Shown piece after piece: positions 5,059-60,082 of a stretch of DNA of 64,000 nt. Below the pieces are notes generated by a model that was not told the DNA's origin, made no database searches, and saw only the letters and a program-made list of their open reading frames with translations. The first letter of the stretch is position 1. Each line of letters begins with the position of its first letter. Made by a program: the position numbers and the translations under genes. Source of the stretch: Parabacteroides distasonis ATCC 8503 (GTDB lineage Bacteria; Bacteroidota; Bacteroidia; Bacteroidales; Tannerellaceae); assembly GCF_000012845.1 (NCBI RefSeq), contig NC_009615.1:1821501-1885500 (forward strand), in the 5' to 3' direction.

Positions 5059-5063
5059 CACTG

Positions 5064-5132
5064 TGTTTTTCATGGTATTAGATTTAAGGTTAACAATTGA
5101 GATTGGCTGTCCGTGATGGATAGCCTTTTTTT
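5064..5132 (+). ncRNA. Candidate short transcript (about 70 nt) between promoter and terminator
   Basis: Bounded by the -7 box at 5051-5058 and an intrinsic terminator at 5104-5131. The start is an estimate of +1 about 6-7 bases after the -7 box. It contains a 14-codon ORF (ATG 5072, stop TGA 5114 inside the terminator loop), which might be a leader peptide, but the downstream gene is on the other strand, so this is not an ordinary attenuator. It would run antisense into the 3' end of the winged-helix gene at 5141-5362. I do not recognise an Rfam family. Confidence 0.4.
5104..5131 (+). terminator. Rho-independent terminator
   Basis: GGCTGTCC and GGATAGCC (5104-5125) form an 8-bp stem, with one G-T pair, around loop GTGAT, followed by a run of T. 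The T-run is only on the plus-strand side, so it ends a rightward transcript. Confidence 0.7.
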
Positions 5133-5140
5133 GTTTCCTT

Positions 5141-8786: not shown

Positions 8787-8805
8787 CGATAAATACGCAA
8801 AAGAA

Positions 8806-8870
8806 AAACATGTACGTGTTTCTTTTAAAACATGTACGACTTTTTCCGAAAACACGTACGTGTTTTTCGA
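8806..8870. repeat. 22-bp-period palindromic array (3 units), locus A
   Basis: Units start at 8806, 8828 and 8850, exactly 22 bp apart, with cores AAACATGTACGTGTTT, AAACATGTACG and AAACACGTACGTGTTT. The third, 8849-8866 (AAAACACGTACGTGTTTT), is a perfect 18-bp palindrome. GTAC is the centre of every unit. It sits between the divergent promoters of the M13 peptidase and GH51 genes. See findings for four sister arrays with the same period. Confidence 0.8.
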
Positions 8871-11503: not shown

Positions 11504-11613
11504 AAGACTCTTATCGTATCACCCTTGTGAAGCGATCTTTTCACCTCTGTGAAGCGATCTTTTCACGGGGGTGATACGATCTTTTCACCTCTGTGAAAAG
11601 ATCAATACCTCCT
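11504..11613. repeat. 22-bp-period palindromic array (about 5 units), locus B
   Basis: Units start at 11504, 11526, 11548, 11570 and 11592, exactly 22 bp apart. The best unit is TGTGAAGCGATCTTTTCACC (11526 and 11548), a near-palindrome GTGAA-N2-GATC-N2-TTCAC. The 11504 unit holds the inverse version (ATCGTATCACC against GGTGATACGAT at 11570). The last unit is degraded after GATC. It lies between two convergent genes; it could fold as hairpins, but there is no T-run typical of an intrinsic terminator. Confidence 0.8.
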
Positions 11614-20624: not shown

Positions 20625-20703
20625 CAACAGGATCATTTATATAAATGTTCCAAAACACATGCAATATATTCCAATTAGCAACAAAACAGGCAAAAATACA
20701 CAC

Positions 20704-20790
20704 GTATATACGCAACGCCCCTCAGCAGTATAGGCATAGGCCTGTATCTATACCAGCGTAAGCCAACACCTATACCGGCGTGGCACGAAC
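20704..20790. repeat. 22-bp-period repeat array (about 4 units), locus C
   Basis: The units CTATACCAGCG (20748) and CTATACCGGCG (20770) are 22 bp apart. Two more diverged units carry TATACGC at 20707 and TATAGGC at 20729, giving steps of 22, 20 and 22. The array ends at the fkp stop codon. The CTATACCGGCG core is shared with the last unit of locus D (CTATACCGACG at 43066), so loci C and D look like one family. Confidence 0.65.
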
Positions 20791-40508: not shown

Positions 40509-41072
40509 ATGAAAGAATGTATCATGTCCTTTTTCAACGCCCCCATCTCCAATCAAGTGCCGAGTGGCGTGACCAGTGTCAAACAGTTGCATACCTATAT
40601 CACCTCCAACGAGTGGCTGAAAGAACGAACGCTCAGCGTACAGGACGCTTTGAGCGACGAGAAACGGTTCCGCAAACTGAAGCAAAACTTACTGCCATAC
40701 GTCACACCGGCCGGGGTCTTCTCCTATCGCAAGGAAGACCGCCTGTTATTCCTTTCCGGAGAGTTTGTCATCGATATCGACCATCTCCCCTCGCCGGAGG
40801 AAACCCTCCACTGGCGAGACACCTTGTTCGCCGATAATAAACTGAGACCGGACCTAGCTTTCGTCAGCCCAAGCACCACAGGCGTGAAACTGCTCGTCCC
40901 CTACCGGCTCTCACCCAAGGCTTCCATAGAGGAATCTTTTGATAAGGCACGGCTATCGGCATGGGAATACCTGAAATGGAAATACGGATTGAATGCGGAT
41001 GCCTCAAACGCCGATCTCTCACGGGCGTGTTTCCTCTGCCATGATCCCTCCGCTAAGCTGCGGGAGAGTTGA
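40509..41072 (+). CDS. VirE_N (BT4734/BF3469-type) domain protein
   Basis: 187 aa. Contains the VirE N-terminal / BT4734-like domain, related to archaeo-eukaryotic primase folds: FVIDIDHLPSPEETLHWRDT and LAFVSPSTTGVKLLVPYRL with the conserved Asp and Ser-Thr loop, then SNADLSRACFLCHDP, the family's closing motif. These proteins usually precede DUF3987 helicase-like proteins in Bacteroidales, as here (55 bp gap), and may form a primase-helicase pair. Function unproven. ATG 40524 is an alternative start. Confidence 0.85.
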   Translation: MKECIMSFFNAPISNQVPSGVTSVKQLHTYITSNEWLKERTLSVQDALSDEKRFRKLKQNLLPYVTPAGVFSYRKEDRLLFLSGEFVIDIDHLPSPEETLHWRDTLFADNKLRPDLAFVSPSTTGVKLLVPYRLSPKASIEESFDKARLSAWEYLKWKYGLNADASNADLSRACFLCHDPSAKLRES

Positions 41073-41127: not shown

Positions 41128-42960
41128 ATGAACCCATTATCAGATTTAGAGCGGCTTGTCGCCGCCATCGAACACCAAGGGGCGAACATCGCTCCCACTT
41201 ACCAAGAGTATATGCCGATCGCCTTCGCCACCGCCAACGATTGCGGGGAAGCGGGAAGGACGTTCTTTCATCGCATCTGCCGCCTGTCCGAGAAATACGT
41301 CTACGAAGAAGCGGACAAGCTATACGACCACGCCCTCAAAGCGGGCAACGGGCGCAACGGATTAGGCTCCGTCTTCCACTGGGCCGAGATTGCCGGCGTA
41401 AAAACGGACAAGCAACTGGCCGACACCTTCCGCCAATACCCGAGGGAGAACAAGAATCCTTCAAACCTTCAAGCCCCTCTCACACCCACACACGCACATA
41501 CGTACGCACGTGAGGACTTGCCACCCGCTTTCCCGAATTATCCGTGGCCCCCGTTCATCAAGCAGATGATCGATTGCGGGAACTCCATCGCCCAGCGTGA
41601 CATACTCCTGCTGGGAGTATTCACCGTACTCGGGGGCACCTTGAACAAGCGGGTACGGGTGTTATACGGACAAAAATACATGTATCCATGCCTACAAACC
41701 TTCATCGTAGCGCCTCCCGCCTCCGGAAAAGGAGCCTTGACATGGGTCAGGCGCCTAGCTGAACCTATTCACGAGGAGATGATGGCCCGCTACAAAGACA
41801 GCCTAAAGAATTATCGGGAGGAAAAGAACCGATGGGACTCACTCGGCAAGAAACGCTCCGAGACGCCCGAGCCGGAACAACCGCCCCTCAAGATGTTCCT
41901 CATAGCCGGCGATAACTCGGGTACCGGTATCTTAGAGAACCTCATAGAGGCCGACGGCGTGGGGCTGATCTGCGAGACCGAGGCTGATACCGTGAGTACC
42001 GCCATCGGAGCGGATCACGGCCATTGGAGCGATACCTTGCGTAAATGCCACGACCATGAGCGACTGGCCTTCAACCGGCGTACTAATCATGAGTACCGGG
42101 AATGCGATGAGTCTTATCTCAGCGTATTGCTAAGTGGAACCCCGGCGCAAGTAAAGCCGCTAATCCCCTCGGCGGAGAACGGCCTGTTCTCTCGCCAGTT
42201 ATTCTATTTCATGCCACCTATCGATGAGTGGATGGACCAATTCGATTCGGAAAGCGAGGATTACGGCCTACGCTTCGCCACATGGGGAACACAATGGAAA
42301 CAGGTACTGGACCTGATCAACGGATCGGTCCAAACGATCCAGCTAAGGCTATCCGAGAAACAGAAAGAGCTGTTCAACCAACGGTTCGCCCAGTTATTCT
42401 CCCACGCCGGTTACGCCTATGGAGGTTCCATGCGAAGCGCCGTCGCCCGTATCGCCATCAATACCTGCCGGATCCTGAGTATAGTAGCCCTGTTGAGAGC
42501 CTTGGAGAAATTCCTCCCTCCCCAACAAAAAATTTTCAATTCTCAATTTTCCATTTTCAATTCCCCCGGTCTCTCCCCCGCCCCGGAGATACCCATCGAG
42601 AATATCAAGGATGGTATCGTCCCCAAGCTGGACCTGCGGGTCACCGACGAGGATTTCCAAGCCGTACTCACGCTCATAGAGCCTCTTTACCGCCATTCGA
42701 GCTACGTGCTGGGCTTCCTGCCTACCTCCGAGGCCATCCCTGTCCAGACCTCTCCTGAACAGGCTTTATTCAATGCCCTCCCAATGATGTTCTGCCGTCG
42801 GCAGGCCGTGGAGGAGGCAGCGAAGAACGGCATACCCGAGAAAACACTCGACTCCTCCCTCAAACGGATGCTGGAGAAGGGAACACTGATCAAGACCGCA
42901 CGGGGCGAGTACGCTTTCTCCTCGCACGTGTGTGTGCGTGAGGGACGCCCGAAGGAATGA
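41128..42960 (+). CDS. DUF3987 (YfjI-like) helicase/primase-associated ATPase
   Basis: 610 aa. Walker A APPASGKG at 195-202 (Lys201), preceded by LLLGVFTVLGGTLNKRVRVL, and a probable Walker B in GVGLICETEAD. The family occurs in plasmid and phage replication modules. In frame at about residues 468-480 it carries KIFNSQFSIFNSP, encoded by the TTCAATT-type intergenic repeat (42531-42563), an apparent insertion into a variable linker. Downstream it ends near a 22-bp repeat array. It may act with the VirE_N protein on DNA. Confidence 0.85.
   Translation: MNPLSDLERLVAAIEHQGANIAPTYQEYMPIAFATANDCGEAGRTFFHRICRLSEKYVYEEADKLYDHALKAGNGRNGLGSVFHWAEIAGVKTDKQLADTFRQYPRENKNPSNLQAPLTPTHAHTYAREDLPPAFPNYPWPPFIKQMIDCGNSIAQRDILLLGVFTVLGGTLNKRVRVLYGQKYMYPCLQTFIVAPPASGKGALTWVRRLAEPIHEEMMARYKDSLKNYREEKNRWDSLGKKRSETPEPEQPPLKMFLIAGDNSGTGILENLIEADGVGLICETEADTVSTAIGADHGHWSDTLRKCHDHERLAFNRRTNHEYRECDESYLSVLLSGTPAQVKPLIPSAENGLFSRQLFYFMPPIDEWMDQFDSESEDYGLRFATWGTQWKQVLDLINGSVQTIQLRLSEKQKELFNQRFAQLFSHAGYAYGGSMRSAVARIAINTCRILSIVALLRALEKFLPPQQKIFNSQFSIFNSPGLSPAPEIPIENIKDGIVPKLDLRVTDEDFQAVLTLIEPLYRHSSYVLGFLPTSEAIPVQTSPEQALFNALPMMFCRRQAVEEAAKNGIPEKTLDSSLKRMLEKGTLIKTARGEYAFSSHVCVREGRPKE
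42531..42563. repeat. TTCAATT-type repeat inserted inside a coding sequence
   Basis: Contains AATTTTCAATTCTCAATTTT and a second half-copy, the same AT-rich repeat otherwise found before start codons at 43523, 44398, 48532 and 49841. Here it lies within the DUF3987 gene without breaking the frame, adding about 11-13 residues. Confidence 0.7.
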
Positions 42961-42973
42961 AGGAATGAAGGAA

Positions 42974-43083
42974 ATGCCACTACTGTCATTGCCCGTAAGC
43001 ACTACCGTCGCAGCCCTACGCCAGTACTGGCGTTGTCTGATGCCAGTACCGGCATCGCCGCTCGCCTATACCGACGGGTGGCG
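42974..43083. repeat. 22-bp-period palindromic array (5 units), locus D
   Basis: Units at 42974, 42996, 43018, 43040 and 43062, exactly 22 bp apart: ATGCCACTACTGTCAT, TAAGCACTACCGTCGC, ACGCCAGTACTGGCGT (a perfect 16-bp palindrome, 43018-43033), ATGCCAGTACCGGCAT and TCGCCTATACCGACGG. TAC lies at the same place in every unit. It sits between the convergent DUF3987 and DUF4248 genes. The clearest of the five arrays. Confidence 0.85.
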
Positions 43084-43333: not shown

Positions 43334-43522
43334 ATCGTTCGCATTTTTAAGATTTATCTTATTGGTATAAAGATACTTAAAACATACGACACGAACAACT
43401 ATACGGATGTTTATTTTTCAGCATATCTCCTCTTTTATCTCCCTTATTCATCCACTGTCAGCGGTATTCATTTCAGAGGAAACCGAATGTCGTACATTCG
43501 TTATCGAAAACAAATCGATTTC

Positions 43523-43560
43523 ATTTTCAATTTTCAATTATCAATTTTTAATTATCAAAT
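43523..43560. repeat. TTCAATT-type repeat before the HU-like gene
   Basis: ATTTTCAATTTTCAATTATC followed by AATTTTTAATTATC, ending 2 bp before the ATG at 43563. It forms the 5' leader and probably keeps the start site unstructured. Confidence 0.6.
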
Positions 43561-43562
43561 CT

Positions 43563-44060
43563 ATGGCTTTAAATTACAGCGTGTCCCTTCGGACCAACCC
43601 TATCAAGAAAGACGAGCCGGCGAAAGCGTACGCCACGGCACAGATCAATGGTGAGCTATCGCTCAAGCAGCTGAGCCGCCGGGTATCCATGCAAACCACC
43701 GTCAGCCGGGCGGATGTGGTGGCGGTATTGATCTCCACTGTCGAGAACCTGCTCGATGCCCTCCAAGAGGGGAAACAGGTGGATTTCGGCGAACTGGGTA
43801 AATTCCGGCTCCATATCCTCAACGAGGGTGCGGAGAGTCTTGAGAAATTCACATCTACAAACATCACCGGGGTTAGTATCCAGTATATACCGGGCGAGGA
43901 CTTGAAGAATGTCTTCGCCGGGCTGGAGTTCCAACCTGTGGCTACTCGCAAGGCTCAGCAAGCGGTGCTCCGTGCGGAGAAGGCTGGGGAGACTACCGTG
44001 GATATCTCGAAGAAGCCGGCTGCTGGGGGTGGGGATTCGGAGTCGCCTGATGAGATCTAA
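43563..44060 (+). CDS. HU-family DNA-binding protein (long variant)
   Basis: 165 aa from ATG 43563; the upstream frame is repeat-derived. HU-like domain with a leading extension: MALNYSVSLRTNPIKKDEPA, then SLKQLSRRVSMQTTVSRADV, VENLLDALQEGKQVDFGELG and FRLHILNEGAESLE. The Bacteroidales HU-related proteins of this type carry a C-terminal tail, here Ala/Lys/Gly rich (SKKPAAGGGDSESPDEI). It should bend or coat DNA. Placed in the accessory island next to DUF4248. Confidence 0.9.
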   Translation: MALNYSVSLRTNPIKKDEPAKAYATAQINGELSLKQLSRRVSMQTTVSRADVVAVLISTVENLLDALQEGKQVDFGELGKFRLHILNEGAESLEKFTSTNITGVSIQYIPGEDLKNVFAGLEFQPVATRKAQQAVLRAEKAGETTVDISKKPAAGGGDSESPDEI

Positions 44061-57883: not shown

Positions 57884-58831
57884 ATGAATCGAATTTGTAG
57901 TCTTTTTGGTATTCAGTATCCCATCATACAGGCGGGAATGGTTTGGTGTAGTGGTTGGCGGCTAGCTTCAGCGGTTAGTAACGCCGGTGGATTAGGATTG
58001 ATCGGGGCAGGCTCCATGCACCCGGAAGTGCTCCGGGAACATATCCGTAAATGCGAGGCGGCGACCGACAAGCCTTTTGGCGTGAATGTCCCGCTGATGT
58101 ATCCGGAAATCGATACCTTGATGCGGATATTGGTGGAGGAAAAAGTGAAGATCGTATTTACCTCCGCCGGCAACCCGAAAATATGGACAAAGTATTTGAA
58201 GGATCATGGCATGACGGTCGTTCACGTGGTAAGCAGCTCTAAATTCGCCACGAAATGCGAGGAGGCCGGAGTGGATGCCATCGTTGCCGAAGGCTTCGAG
58301 GCCGGCGGGCACAACGGACGGGAGGAAACAACTACGATGTGCCTGATCCCCGCTGTCCGGAAAGCGACCTCTCTCCCCCTTTTGGCGGCAGGAGGTATAG
58401 GAAACGGTCAAGCGATGCTAGCGGCACTCGCACTAGGGGCCGACGGCGTACAGATAGGCACTCGTTTCGCCCTAACCAAAGAAAGCTCGGCACACGAGAA
58501 TTTCAAGAAACTATGCTTGAATCTTAAGGAAGGCGATACGAAGTTATTATTAAAGAAACTGTCTCCTACCCGTCTGGTAAAAGGAGATTTCGCTACGGCA
58601 GTGGAAGAAGCGGAAGCCCGGGGAGCGTCCGTGGAAGAATTACGTGAGTTATTGGGCAAAGGACGTGCCAAGAAAGGAATCTTTGAGGGCGACCTAAAGG
58701 AAGGCGAGTTAGAGATCGGACAGGTAGCGTCTTTATTCTGGGAGGAATTATCCGTGGAAGAGGTGATGAAAGAATTGATCCGTGACTTTAAGCTATCCTT
58801 AGAGAACGTAAAAACACAGTTGTGTTCGTGA
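57884..58831 (+). CDS. FMN-dependent enoyl-ACP reductase II / nitronate monooxygenase family
   Basis: 315 aa TIM barrel binding FMN. Landmarks: IQYPIIQAGMVWCSGWRLAS, NAGGLGLIGAGSM, KPFGVNVPLMYPEID, VAEGFEAGGHNGREETTTM with the family's His, and PLLAAGGIGNGQAMLAALAL followed by GADGVQIGTRFALT. Both FabK (fatty-acid synthesis) and nitronate monooxygenase share these features; FabK is more likely in Bacteroidales, but I cannot decide. The last codons overlap the first unit of a 22-bp repeat array, so the array shapes the protein's end (KTQLCS). Confidence 0.85.
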   Translation: MNRICSLFGIQYPIIQAGMVWCSGWRLASAVSNAGGLGLIGAGSMHPEVLREHIRKCEAATDKPFGVNVPLMYPEIDTLMRILVEEKVKIVFTSAGNPKIWTKYLKDHGMTVVHVVSSSKFATKCEEAGVDAIVAEGFEAGGHNGREETTTMCLIPAVRKATSLPLLAAGGIGNGQAMLAALALGADGVQIGTRFALTKESSAHENFKKLCLNLKEGDTKLLLKKLSPTRLVKGDFATAVEEAEARGASVEELRELLGKGRAKKGIFEGDLKEGELEIGQVASLFWEELSVEEVMKELIRDFKLSLENVKTQLCS

Positions 58832-58896
58832 GAAAACACAACTGTATCTGTGGATAAACACAACTGTGTTCAAGAGAAAACACAGTTGTGTTCCTT
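58813..58896. repeat. 22-bp-period palindromic array (4 units), locus E
   Basis: Units at 58813, 58835, 58857 and 58879, exactly 22 bp apart: AACACAGTTGTGTT, AACACAACTGTATC, AACACAACTGTGTT and AACACAGTTGTGTT. Each is a near-palindrome. The first is within the end of the FabK-like gene and the last touches the TolC stop (58898), between convergent genes. Confidence 0.85.
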
Positions 58897-58897
58897 A

Positions 58898-60082
58898 TCA
58901 TAATCGATACTTATACAATTGCGCCATGACCTTTTGGTATTGGTTTTGCAATTGCAGGTAGTTTTGCACGCTTTGGTAATAGGTCGTCACATCCACGAAA
59001 TACTCGATCATAGAGATTTGCCCGGCCTGTATAGCCTTGTTCAACAAGACCAAGCTATTCTGCCTTTTCAGCACATCCTTATATTCATCGATAGATTTCT
59101 TTAAGGAGACAGACTGGTCATATAGCTGCCTCAACCCATTCTCTACCGTGAAAGAAGCGCTCTCCAACTGCATCTCCGTATAGCGGGCCTGAGCCTTCGC
59201 CTGTTTCACGTTATTACGGTTCGAGAACAACGGGATGGTGATTCCTACCAAGAAACCATTGAAACGCTCTCCACCCGAGGCGGGATTCATACGATACCCT
59301 AACTCAAAGCCGGGCAGACCTTTCGCCTTATTCACGCTCACCTGCCGAAGAGCTGTCGTCTGGTCGCTACGCAAGGTCTGTAATTGCGGATCGGATTGCA
59401 TCGCCTCCGTCCGCAGCTCATCAAAGGAAAGCACATCCTTATCCGGCAAGGCGTAAACCGTATCCGTAAACTCGATAGCGATACCGCCGTTCAGGGTAGC
59501 CAGCTCCTGCAGCTTGGCAATACGGGAAGTCTCGTTCATCCGGGCCTCTGTCCGAGCGTTCAATAATTCCAGATCGATCTTGTTTGTCTCAAGGATATTC
59601 GCATTTCCTTTCTCCAAACGAGTCGCATAAAAAGCGGAAAGTTGCTCGGCGTTCCTAAGACGGGTATCCAATAGGTTCTTCTGCTGGTTCAACAGCACCA
59701 AATCTAGGCAAACCTCTTTCACCTGCAACAAGATTTGCTGACGAAAAGCCATCCCTTGACGATCCAAACCCGCGGATTTCGCCTTCGTCAGCTTATGCTT
59801 CCGGACATATACGGACGGGAAATCAAAGCTTTGGGAAGCCACGAACTCGCCCGTGAATCCCATCCCTTCTTTATTCCCCCAGAAATGCGAATAAGAGACC
59901 GAAGGGTCTGGCAAATTATTATCCAACTTCGCCTCCAGCTTCTGCGACTGGACCAACTGGCTGTTCGCCTGTAAATCCTTATTGTTCGCCTCCACGCTCC
60001 GGAGCACGTCCTCTATAGAAGTCTGGGCGGAAAGGCCGCCTGTCAATACAGACAAGGCGGCGACTATAATATATGATTTCAT
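58898..60082 (-). CDS. TolC/CusC-type outer-membrane efflux protein
   Basis: 394 aa. Signal peptide ending GGLSAQ. Two OEP repeats of long coiled-coil helices: SIEDVLRSVEANNKDLQANS and LRTEAMQSDPQLQTLRSDQT with the repeat-start pattern. Part of a CusCBA-like export operon with the RND pump (5 bp upstream) and adaptor. Rather short for TolC but normal for Bacteroidetes CusC-type proteins. It would form the outer-membrane channel. Confidence 0.92.
   Translation of the reverse strand: MKSYIIVAALSVLTGGLSAQTSIEDVLRSVEANNKDLQANSQLVQSQKLEAKLDNNLPDPSVSYSHFWGNKEGMGFTGEFVASQSFDFPSVYVRKHKLTKAKSAGLDRQGMAFRQQILLQVKEVCLDLVLLNQQKNLLDTRLRNAEQLSAFYATRLEKGNANILETNKIDLELLNARTEARMNETSRIAKLQELATLNGGIAIEFTDTVYALPDKDVLSFDELRTEAMQSDPQLQTLRSDQTTALRQVSVNKAKGLPGFELGYRMNPASGGERFNGFLVGITIPLFSNRNNVKQAKAQARYTEMQLESASFTVENGLRQLYDQSVSLKKSIDEYKDVLKRQNSLVLLNKAIQAGQISMIEYFVDVTTYYQSVQNYLQLQNQYQKVMAQLYKYRL

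Follow-up and report, generated by a model that had tools for sequence, protein, structure and literature searches.

Intergenic arrays of palindromic units share a 22-bp pitch across several unrelated sequence families in Parabacteroides distasonis

The genome of Parabacteroides distasonis ATCC 8503 carries short intergenic arrays of palindromic units that repeat every 22 bp, and several sequence families of such arrays coexist in this one genome on one pitch. We studied a 64,000-nucleotide stretch of the chromosome (the window), in which an initial annotation had marked five arrays, together with 40 stretches of 20 kb from the same genome; with the window, this sample comes to 864 kb, or 18% of the genome. 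The central proposal of that annotation, a common architecture in which a fixed period underlies differing sequences, is supported by the several unrelated families that we find on the 22-bp pitch. With moderate confidence, and judging from sequence, we regard the arrays as dispersed intergenic elements resembling BIMEs, with a two-turn pitch that would suit a candidate DNA-binding protein.

All five window arrays have the positions and the period first described for them, and none carries a strand assignment. TRF independently reports period 22 at 8805-8868, 11519-11597 and 58811-58893 (arrays A, B and E); it gives no period-22 report at arrays C or D. Array A (8805..8868) consists of three palindromic units of the AAAACACGTACGTGTTTT type on a 22-bp pitch and is placed between divergent genes for an M13 peptidase and an arabinofuranosidase. 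Array B (11512..11603) has four units of the form NTNTCAC-N4-GTGANAN around GATC, also on a 22-bp pitch, and sits in the gap of convergent genes. About four units around TATA(C), with one 20-bp step, make up array C (20700..20787), which lies 4 bp beyond a stop codon. Array D (42974..43083) holds five units with the centre TAC on a 22-bp pitch and contains ACGCCAGTACTGGCGT; it begins 14 bp after the stop at 42960 of a forward-strand gene with DUF3987 and PriCT_2 domains (41128..42960). The next gene downstream, also on the forward strand (43407..44060), encodes an HU-HIG domain protein, and array D was scored as convergent in our orientation count owing to a doubtful 79-aa ORF on its other side. 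The four AAACACARYTGTGTTT units of array E (58811..58893), again on a 22-bp pitch, occupy the whole of a convergent gap: the array covers the final 21 bp of a nitronate monooxygenase-family gene on the forward strand (57884..58831), overlapping its 3' end, and an outer membrane efflux protein gene on the reverse strand (58898..60082) starts 5 bp past it. The arrays had been described as lying at gene ends or in divergent promoters, and this agrees with what we see, A being divergent, B and E convergent, and C and D just past stops.

Palindromy was measured as the number of self-complementary pairs at three to five centres spaced 22 bp apart, and compared with 200 Markov shuffles and with spacings of 17-27 bp. 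Arrays A (20/24 pairs), B (22/32), D (27/40) and E (23/32) each score above all 200 shuffles and above any of the other spacings between 17 and 27 bp. The claim that the units are palindromic thus holds at these four loci and is not supported at array C, where the value of 15/32 is not above chance, being equalled or beaten by 55 of the 200 shuffles. Array C clusters with array D, and its counterpart in a sister genome (G004) is longer by one 22-bp unit.

The period is not peculiar to the window. A palindrome-blind scan of the 864 kb returned 27 arrays at period 22 and 16 at its harmonic, 44, against 0-9 at every other period from 12 to 49, so the absence of enrichment that would have spoken against the first description is not what the genome presents. 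Nearly all of the period-22 arrays (26/27) lie outside genes, 25 of them fully, with array E overlapping a gene by a quarter; the single array within a called gene is L009. Gene calls cover 86% of the sample and were made, outside the window's ORF list, with a simple codon-scored ORF caller. Palindromy is significant against column shuffles (p < 0.05) in 20 of the 27 arrays and not in the other seven. Neighbouring units differ by 25 double-compensated changes, against 0-3 in six controls slid by 1-3 bases, a count for which the centre was chosen to maximise pairing. At a lower threshold, 34 of the 271 sampled gaps of 60-700 bp in this common gut bacterium, whether at the ends of genes or separating divergent ones, contain an array of period 21-23. 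Chance may account for a few of these, since other periods give 0-5 intergenic hits each at a similar threshold.

Arrays of this kind also occur beyond P. distasonis. When palindromic units are required, their density is 22.0 per Mb in the genome's own sample, 12.0 in other Parabacteroides (502 kb) and 3.1 in other Bacteroidales (1283 kb), and 400 kb from Bacteroidota of other orders yields none; the corresponding means for other periods are 0.12, 0.00, 0.62 and 0.25 arrays per Mb. Enrichment beyond Parabacteroides is modest, and the Bacteroidales loci sampled all flank one gene, hence they are not a random sample. Clear arrays beyond the genus include, at 22 bp, L190 and L221 from Bacteroides and L193 from Mediterranea and, at 23 bp, L231 from Bacteroidaceae. 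As a separate observation, a genome of the same class from outside the order (G098) has non-palindromic 22-bp tandem repeats with CGTCATTGCGAG at L259, L261 and L262, equal in period to the P. distasonis arrays and different in architecture.

We clustered 36 sampled arrays (27 at period 22, seven at period 23, plus C and D from the window) and obtained seven groups of two to five members and 13 singletons. One cluster brings arrays C and D together with three further arrays, array E stands alone in the sample, and array C as a query finds three places in the genome, itself included. Family A, named for the array at window 8805, occupies at least 35 distinct loci, a lower bound in that 40 of 48 candidates were scored. 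Its members mostly have three or four units: all three GTAC centres follow one another at exactly 22 bp in 28 of the 35 tabulated rows, which represent 34 loci (L305 and L339 are one locus, and L337, with two units, is left out), and a fourth unit is present in several copies. Nine genome loci belong to family B (window 11513), all nine with four units at 22-bp steps, and the four bases between its half-sites are almost free, with 24 distinct versions among 36. Unit number is therefore nearly fixed in the two families that we examined closely, and exceptions exist, including an eight-unit array at L012:12965. By inspection, the pitch is constant while the length of the palindrome varies, which speaks for a role in DNA rather than RNA, as do the almost free inner bases of family B. 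The statement that the sequences differ between loci proves to be right only within the window; across the genome, A and B are recurrent families.

Under the reading that we prefer, an array would be a set of about three to eight palindromic units on the two-turn (22-bp) pitch. Probably arrays have been copied whole from locus to locus and have then gained or lost units in 22-bp steps, and a site can lose its array or come to hold one of another family. Each array could be a series of half-sites that alternate in orientation and recur once per helical turn, to which a dimeric or polymerising DNA-binding protein might bind. At gene ends and between divergent promoters such a series might serve as an insulator, a gyrase site or a terminator-helper site. 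The combination of a two-turn pitch with unrelated sequences favours a protein on DNA, and the earlier suggestion of a protein bound to one face of the helix stays a candidate because the pitch suits it. The presence of many unrelated families in one genome is awkward for a single sequence-specific protein. Also weighing against this reading, the P. distasonis arrays are divided among codirectional, divergent and convergent gaps (15, 10 and 7) much like gaps in general (131, 63 and 40). HU-HIG proteins were considered as the binder and set aside; the genome has 23 matches and nothing connects them to the arrays.

Comparison of units within and between loci bears on how the arrays spread. Within a locus, unit identity is 0.781 for family A and 0.788 for family B, against 0.784 and 0.800 when both locus and position differ. 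The highest identities (0.803 and 0.821) are those of units that hold the same position at separate loci, an effect greater than in all 300 order shuffles for each family; this similarity is partly favoured by the placing of copies by best match to the query, which leaves the within-locus comparison unaffected. The comparison covers families A and B only, without L305 and L286. Since units are no more alike within a locus than between loci, local amplification, put forward earlier as an origin, does not explain A or B, and these two families do not behave as local tandem minisatellites. Probably whole arrays have been copied between loci, or each position is separately constrained.

One tentative account is that the arrays are non-autonomous, MITE-like elements mobilised in trans by a cellular transposase or recombinase, with the palindromes as its recognition sites. 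It is compatible with the BIME-like reading, and both can be true. The number of A copies argues for it, as does a frame around part of the family, 179-189 bp long and bounded by TTATTGT direct repeats. Pairs of TTATTGT with 162-190 bases between them number 18, against 7 for the reversed control pattern; 12 of the 18 frames enclose A units, two (L373 and L374) enclose other units, and L368 starts with a different array. Such a frame around a subset of A suggests a mobile element moved in trans, and the absence of the family at L291 and L332 in G004 points the same way. However, only 12 of the 35 A copies lie near two TTATTGT and five more have the same flanks, which leaves 18 without the frame or common flanks. 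Nor does inspection show terminal inverted repeats on the A frame, whose ends are direct repeats, and the genome has no match to the Y1 transposase (PF01797), a search that matched in 41 of 60 searched genomes of the order and in the E. coli control. An REP/RAYT origin was rejected on the same result. No common flanks were found for the family B copies. L373 and L374 (G000:C1:3160382 and 3237909) each have a 184-bp TTATTGT frame with three ACTATNNATAG-type palindromic units on a 22-bp pitch, in the layout of the A frame.

Alternatively, the arrays could act in RNA, as rows of hairpins that terminate mRNAs or stabilise their 3' ends, often in both directions, a proposal that we consider unlikely. 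In its favour, codirectional arrays of P. distasonis hug 3' ends: the upstream stop is closer to them than the downstream start in 14 of 15 cases. Among three further members of the genus the figure is 3 of 7. Gene ends with an array also more often lack a terminator-like hairpin with a T run (13/27 against about 39/188 at other ends, p 0.004, with 39 back-calculated from 0.21). Such a hairpin is present at the other 14 of the 27, in some cases inside the array, and strong terminator scores (>= 22) are equally frequent with an array (0.22) and without one (0.25), which argues against the proposal. So do the divergent gene pairs that flank 11 of the 35 A copies. A hairpin role does not require a constant 22-bp pitch, and T runs are absent from many families by inspection; in family A, runs of A and of T do flank the units.

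Tests of pairing were divided. On the transcribed strand, 22 G-U mismatches (8 of them from L093) stand against 13 A-C mismatches, counts that lean toward RNA but not significantly (p 0.18). Arm variants of family B show no covariation (z -0.8 and -1.5), which argues against RNA pairing. Family A shows a tendency to complementarity between variant half-sites of separate units, seen in 10 of 14 cases and in about 6 of 19 once the right-hand sides have been shuffled among copies; a count of 10 is attained by 263 of the 5000 shuffles (L305 removed). This complementarity is suggestive of single-strand pairing, while half-site covariation by plain permutation has mixed signs in the same family (z -3.4 to 2.1). 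A known structured RNA was also sought and rejected: Rfam matches at the gathering score consist of FopS alone in the window and none in 11 element loci.

Sister genomes show that the arrays change by whole units and are sometimes absent. We searched both G004 and G023 with probes adjoining 28 arrays, and G004 with 28 probes beside A copies; the seven A rows without a probe comprise five that duplicate probed sites or each other, L305 (the same locus as L339) and L295. We dropped L154 and L163 (second probe match), L169 (contig end) and L177 (short match), and among the A copies in G004 we excluded L362, L366 and L367 from the indel comparison and L348, L366 and L367 from two-sided anchoring. 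In 24 comparisons with good flanks, four sites (window 8805, window 20700, L103 and L095:11429) show unit differences of precisely 22 or 44 bp. Other indels measure 1, 23, 39, 65, 71, 95 and 156 bp, the larger of which delete most or all of the array. Among the A copies compared with G004, L287 differs by 22 bp and L301 by 44 bp, the latter split over two alignment gaps. For the window itself, array A is shorter by exactly 44 bp in G023, array D is retained in G004 with 29 of 134 aligned sites different, and array E has two units in G017. In G023 a single, ordinary terminator-like hairpin stands in place of array E, a substitution that favours the RNA proposal. Between sister species, units are thus gained or lost in steps of 22 and 44 bp, and some arrays are missing from one relative or the other. 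By the side of this, L146, the G004 ortholog of L095:11429, ends its array in a 40-bp perfect palindrome; the matching stretch of the P. distasonis genome has no such palindrome and is by eye closer to another neighbouring unit.

Sites may also exchange one family for another. Among G004 sites anchored on both sides, 21 keep their own family, six have no array and five hold a different array of 21-22 bp (L281, L282, L284, L292 and L095:6004); the corresponding numbers in G023 are six, nine and one (L006). Some sites counted as having no array keep about one unit of their own family (window 8805, L010 and L095:11429 in G023; L301 in G004), and 17 of the 65 sister comparisons, having no two-sided anchor, are unclassified. 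Another array thus appears in 5 of the 11 G004 gaps that lack their own family, against 34 of 271 gaps in P. distasonis itself (p 0.007), and in 6 of 21 when G023 is added (p 0.04); of the other gaps within the G004 loci, 2 of 21 hold an array. Replacement at the same site is suggestive, the sample being small and three of the six calls weak (L281, L292 and L095:6004, scores 12.6-13.8). One could envision an architectural code of Bacteroidales in which arrays with an alternating half-site at each helical turn are bound by a polymerising chromosomal protein that responds to spacing and dyad symmetry rather more than to sequence. If so, any family could serve at a given gene boundary, and a sister would keep an array of another family there; we judge such a code improbable.

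The poorest account is that the arrays are functionless minisatellites whose units multiplied in place through slippage or template switching: it draws on the 22- and 44-bp differences between sisters, on the higher divergence of arrays than of their flanks (0.104 vs 0.069) and on 6 of 45 change clusters that match another unit, but the other 39 have no template, which speaks against template switching as the main force, the units of A and B are not more alike within a locus, and slippage would leave a single pitch in unrelated families unexplained, so that we hold it to be very improbable.

In architecture, the nearest known counterparts of the arrays are REP/BIME elements, among them the BIMEs of enterobacteria; such elements are described as dispersed, extragenic and regularly spaced palindromes with compensated changes (PMC2817692). 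The likeness lies in extragenic, regularly spaced palindromes in many copies, and the difference in the lack of a Y1 transposase match and in the one 22-bp pitch that several unrelated families share here. REP sequences bear an unpaired GTAG or CGTC tag at one end of the palindrome, and CGTC-tagged palindromes are reported in Bacteroidetes (PMC3733652). By eye, neither tag is present in the consensus units of family A or B.

Nearest in taxonomy and period are the BrickBuilt elements. Their host, Porphyromonas gingivalis, belongs to the same bacterial order. They are described as intergenic tandem repeats of 23 nt at 19 loci of one genome, forming one repeat family of 1 to 22.8 copies with terminal inverted repeats like those of IS5-family elements (PMC4596501). 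The TTATTGT frame recalls the BrickBuilt leader and tail. The arrays differ in having many families, periods of mainly 22 bp, a near-fixed unit number in A and B, and direct rather than inverted ends to the frame. The kinship with BrickBuilt proposed in the initial annotation thus amounts to a resemblance in tandem repetition and period, and the inverted repeats of those elements are not seen here by inspection. Plasmid iterons, to which an initiator protein binds, are direct repeats some 22 bp long whose phase matches two helical turns. They are like the arrays in repeat length and two-turn phase, and unlike them in that the arrays are chromosomal, intergenic and present in many copies. A CRISPR array was rejected, as the units are separated by only a few bases, with no unique spacers of repeat length.

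We found no description of such 22-bp palindrome arrays by title or abstract among open-licence papers. The phylum does have some previously known repeats of a related sort, since 41-, 23- and 22-nt tandem repeats had earlier been noted in P. gingivalis W83, as mentioned in PMC4596501, alongside the CGTC-tagged palindromes of Bacteroidetes (PMC3733652). A two-turn pitch common to unrelated sequences is a concrete clue to a candidate activity in Bacteroidales that binds or copies DNA; transcription termination and promoter insulation in this order may be influenced by the arrays.

Three further features were observed in passing. HU-HIG proteins (PF18291) have 23 matches in P. distasonis (G000) against 0-3 in 40 other genomes of the phylum. 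The Rfam match in the window, at 5063-5135, is to BTncRNA_FopS (RF04319), a paralogous small RNA family of Bacteroidetes. Short arrays of period 7, mostly A/T-rich, occur between 41 and 50 kb of the window, at 41067, 41099, 42531, 43519, 44267, 44400, 48528 and 49842.
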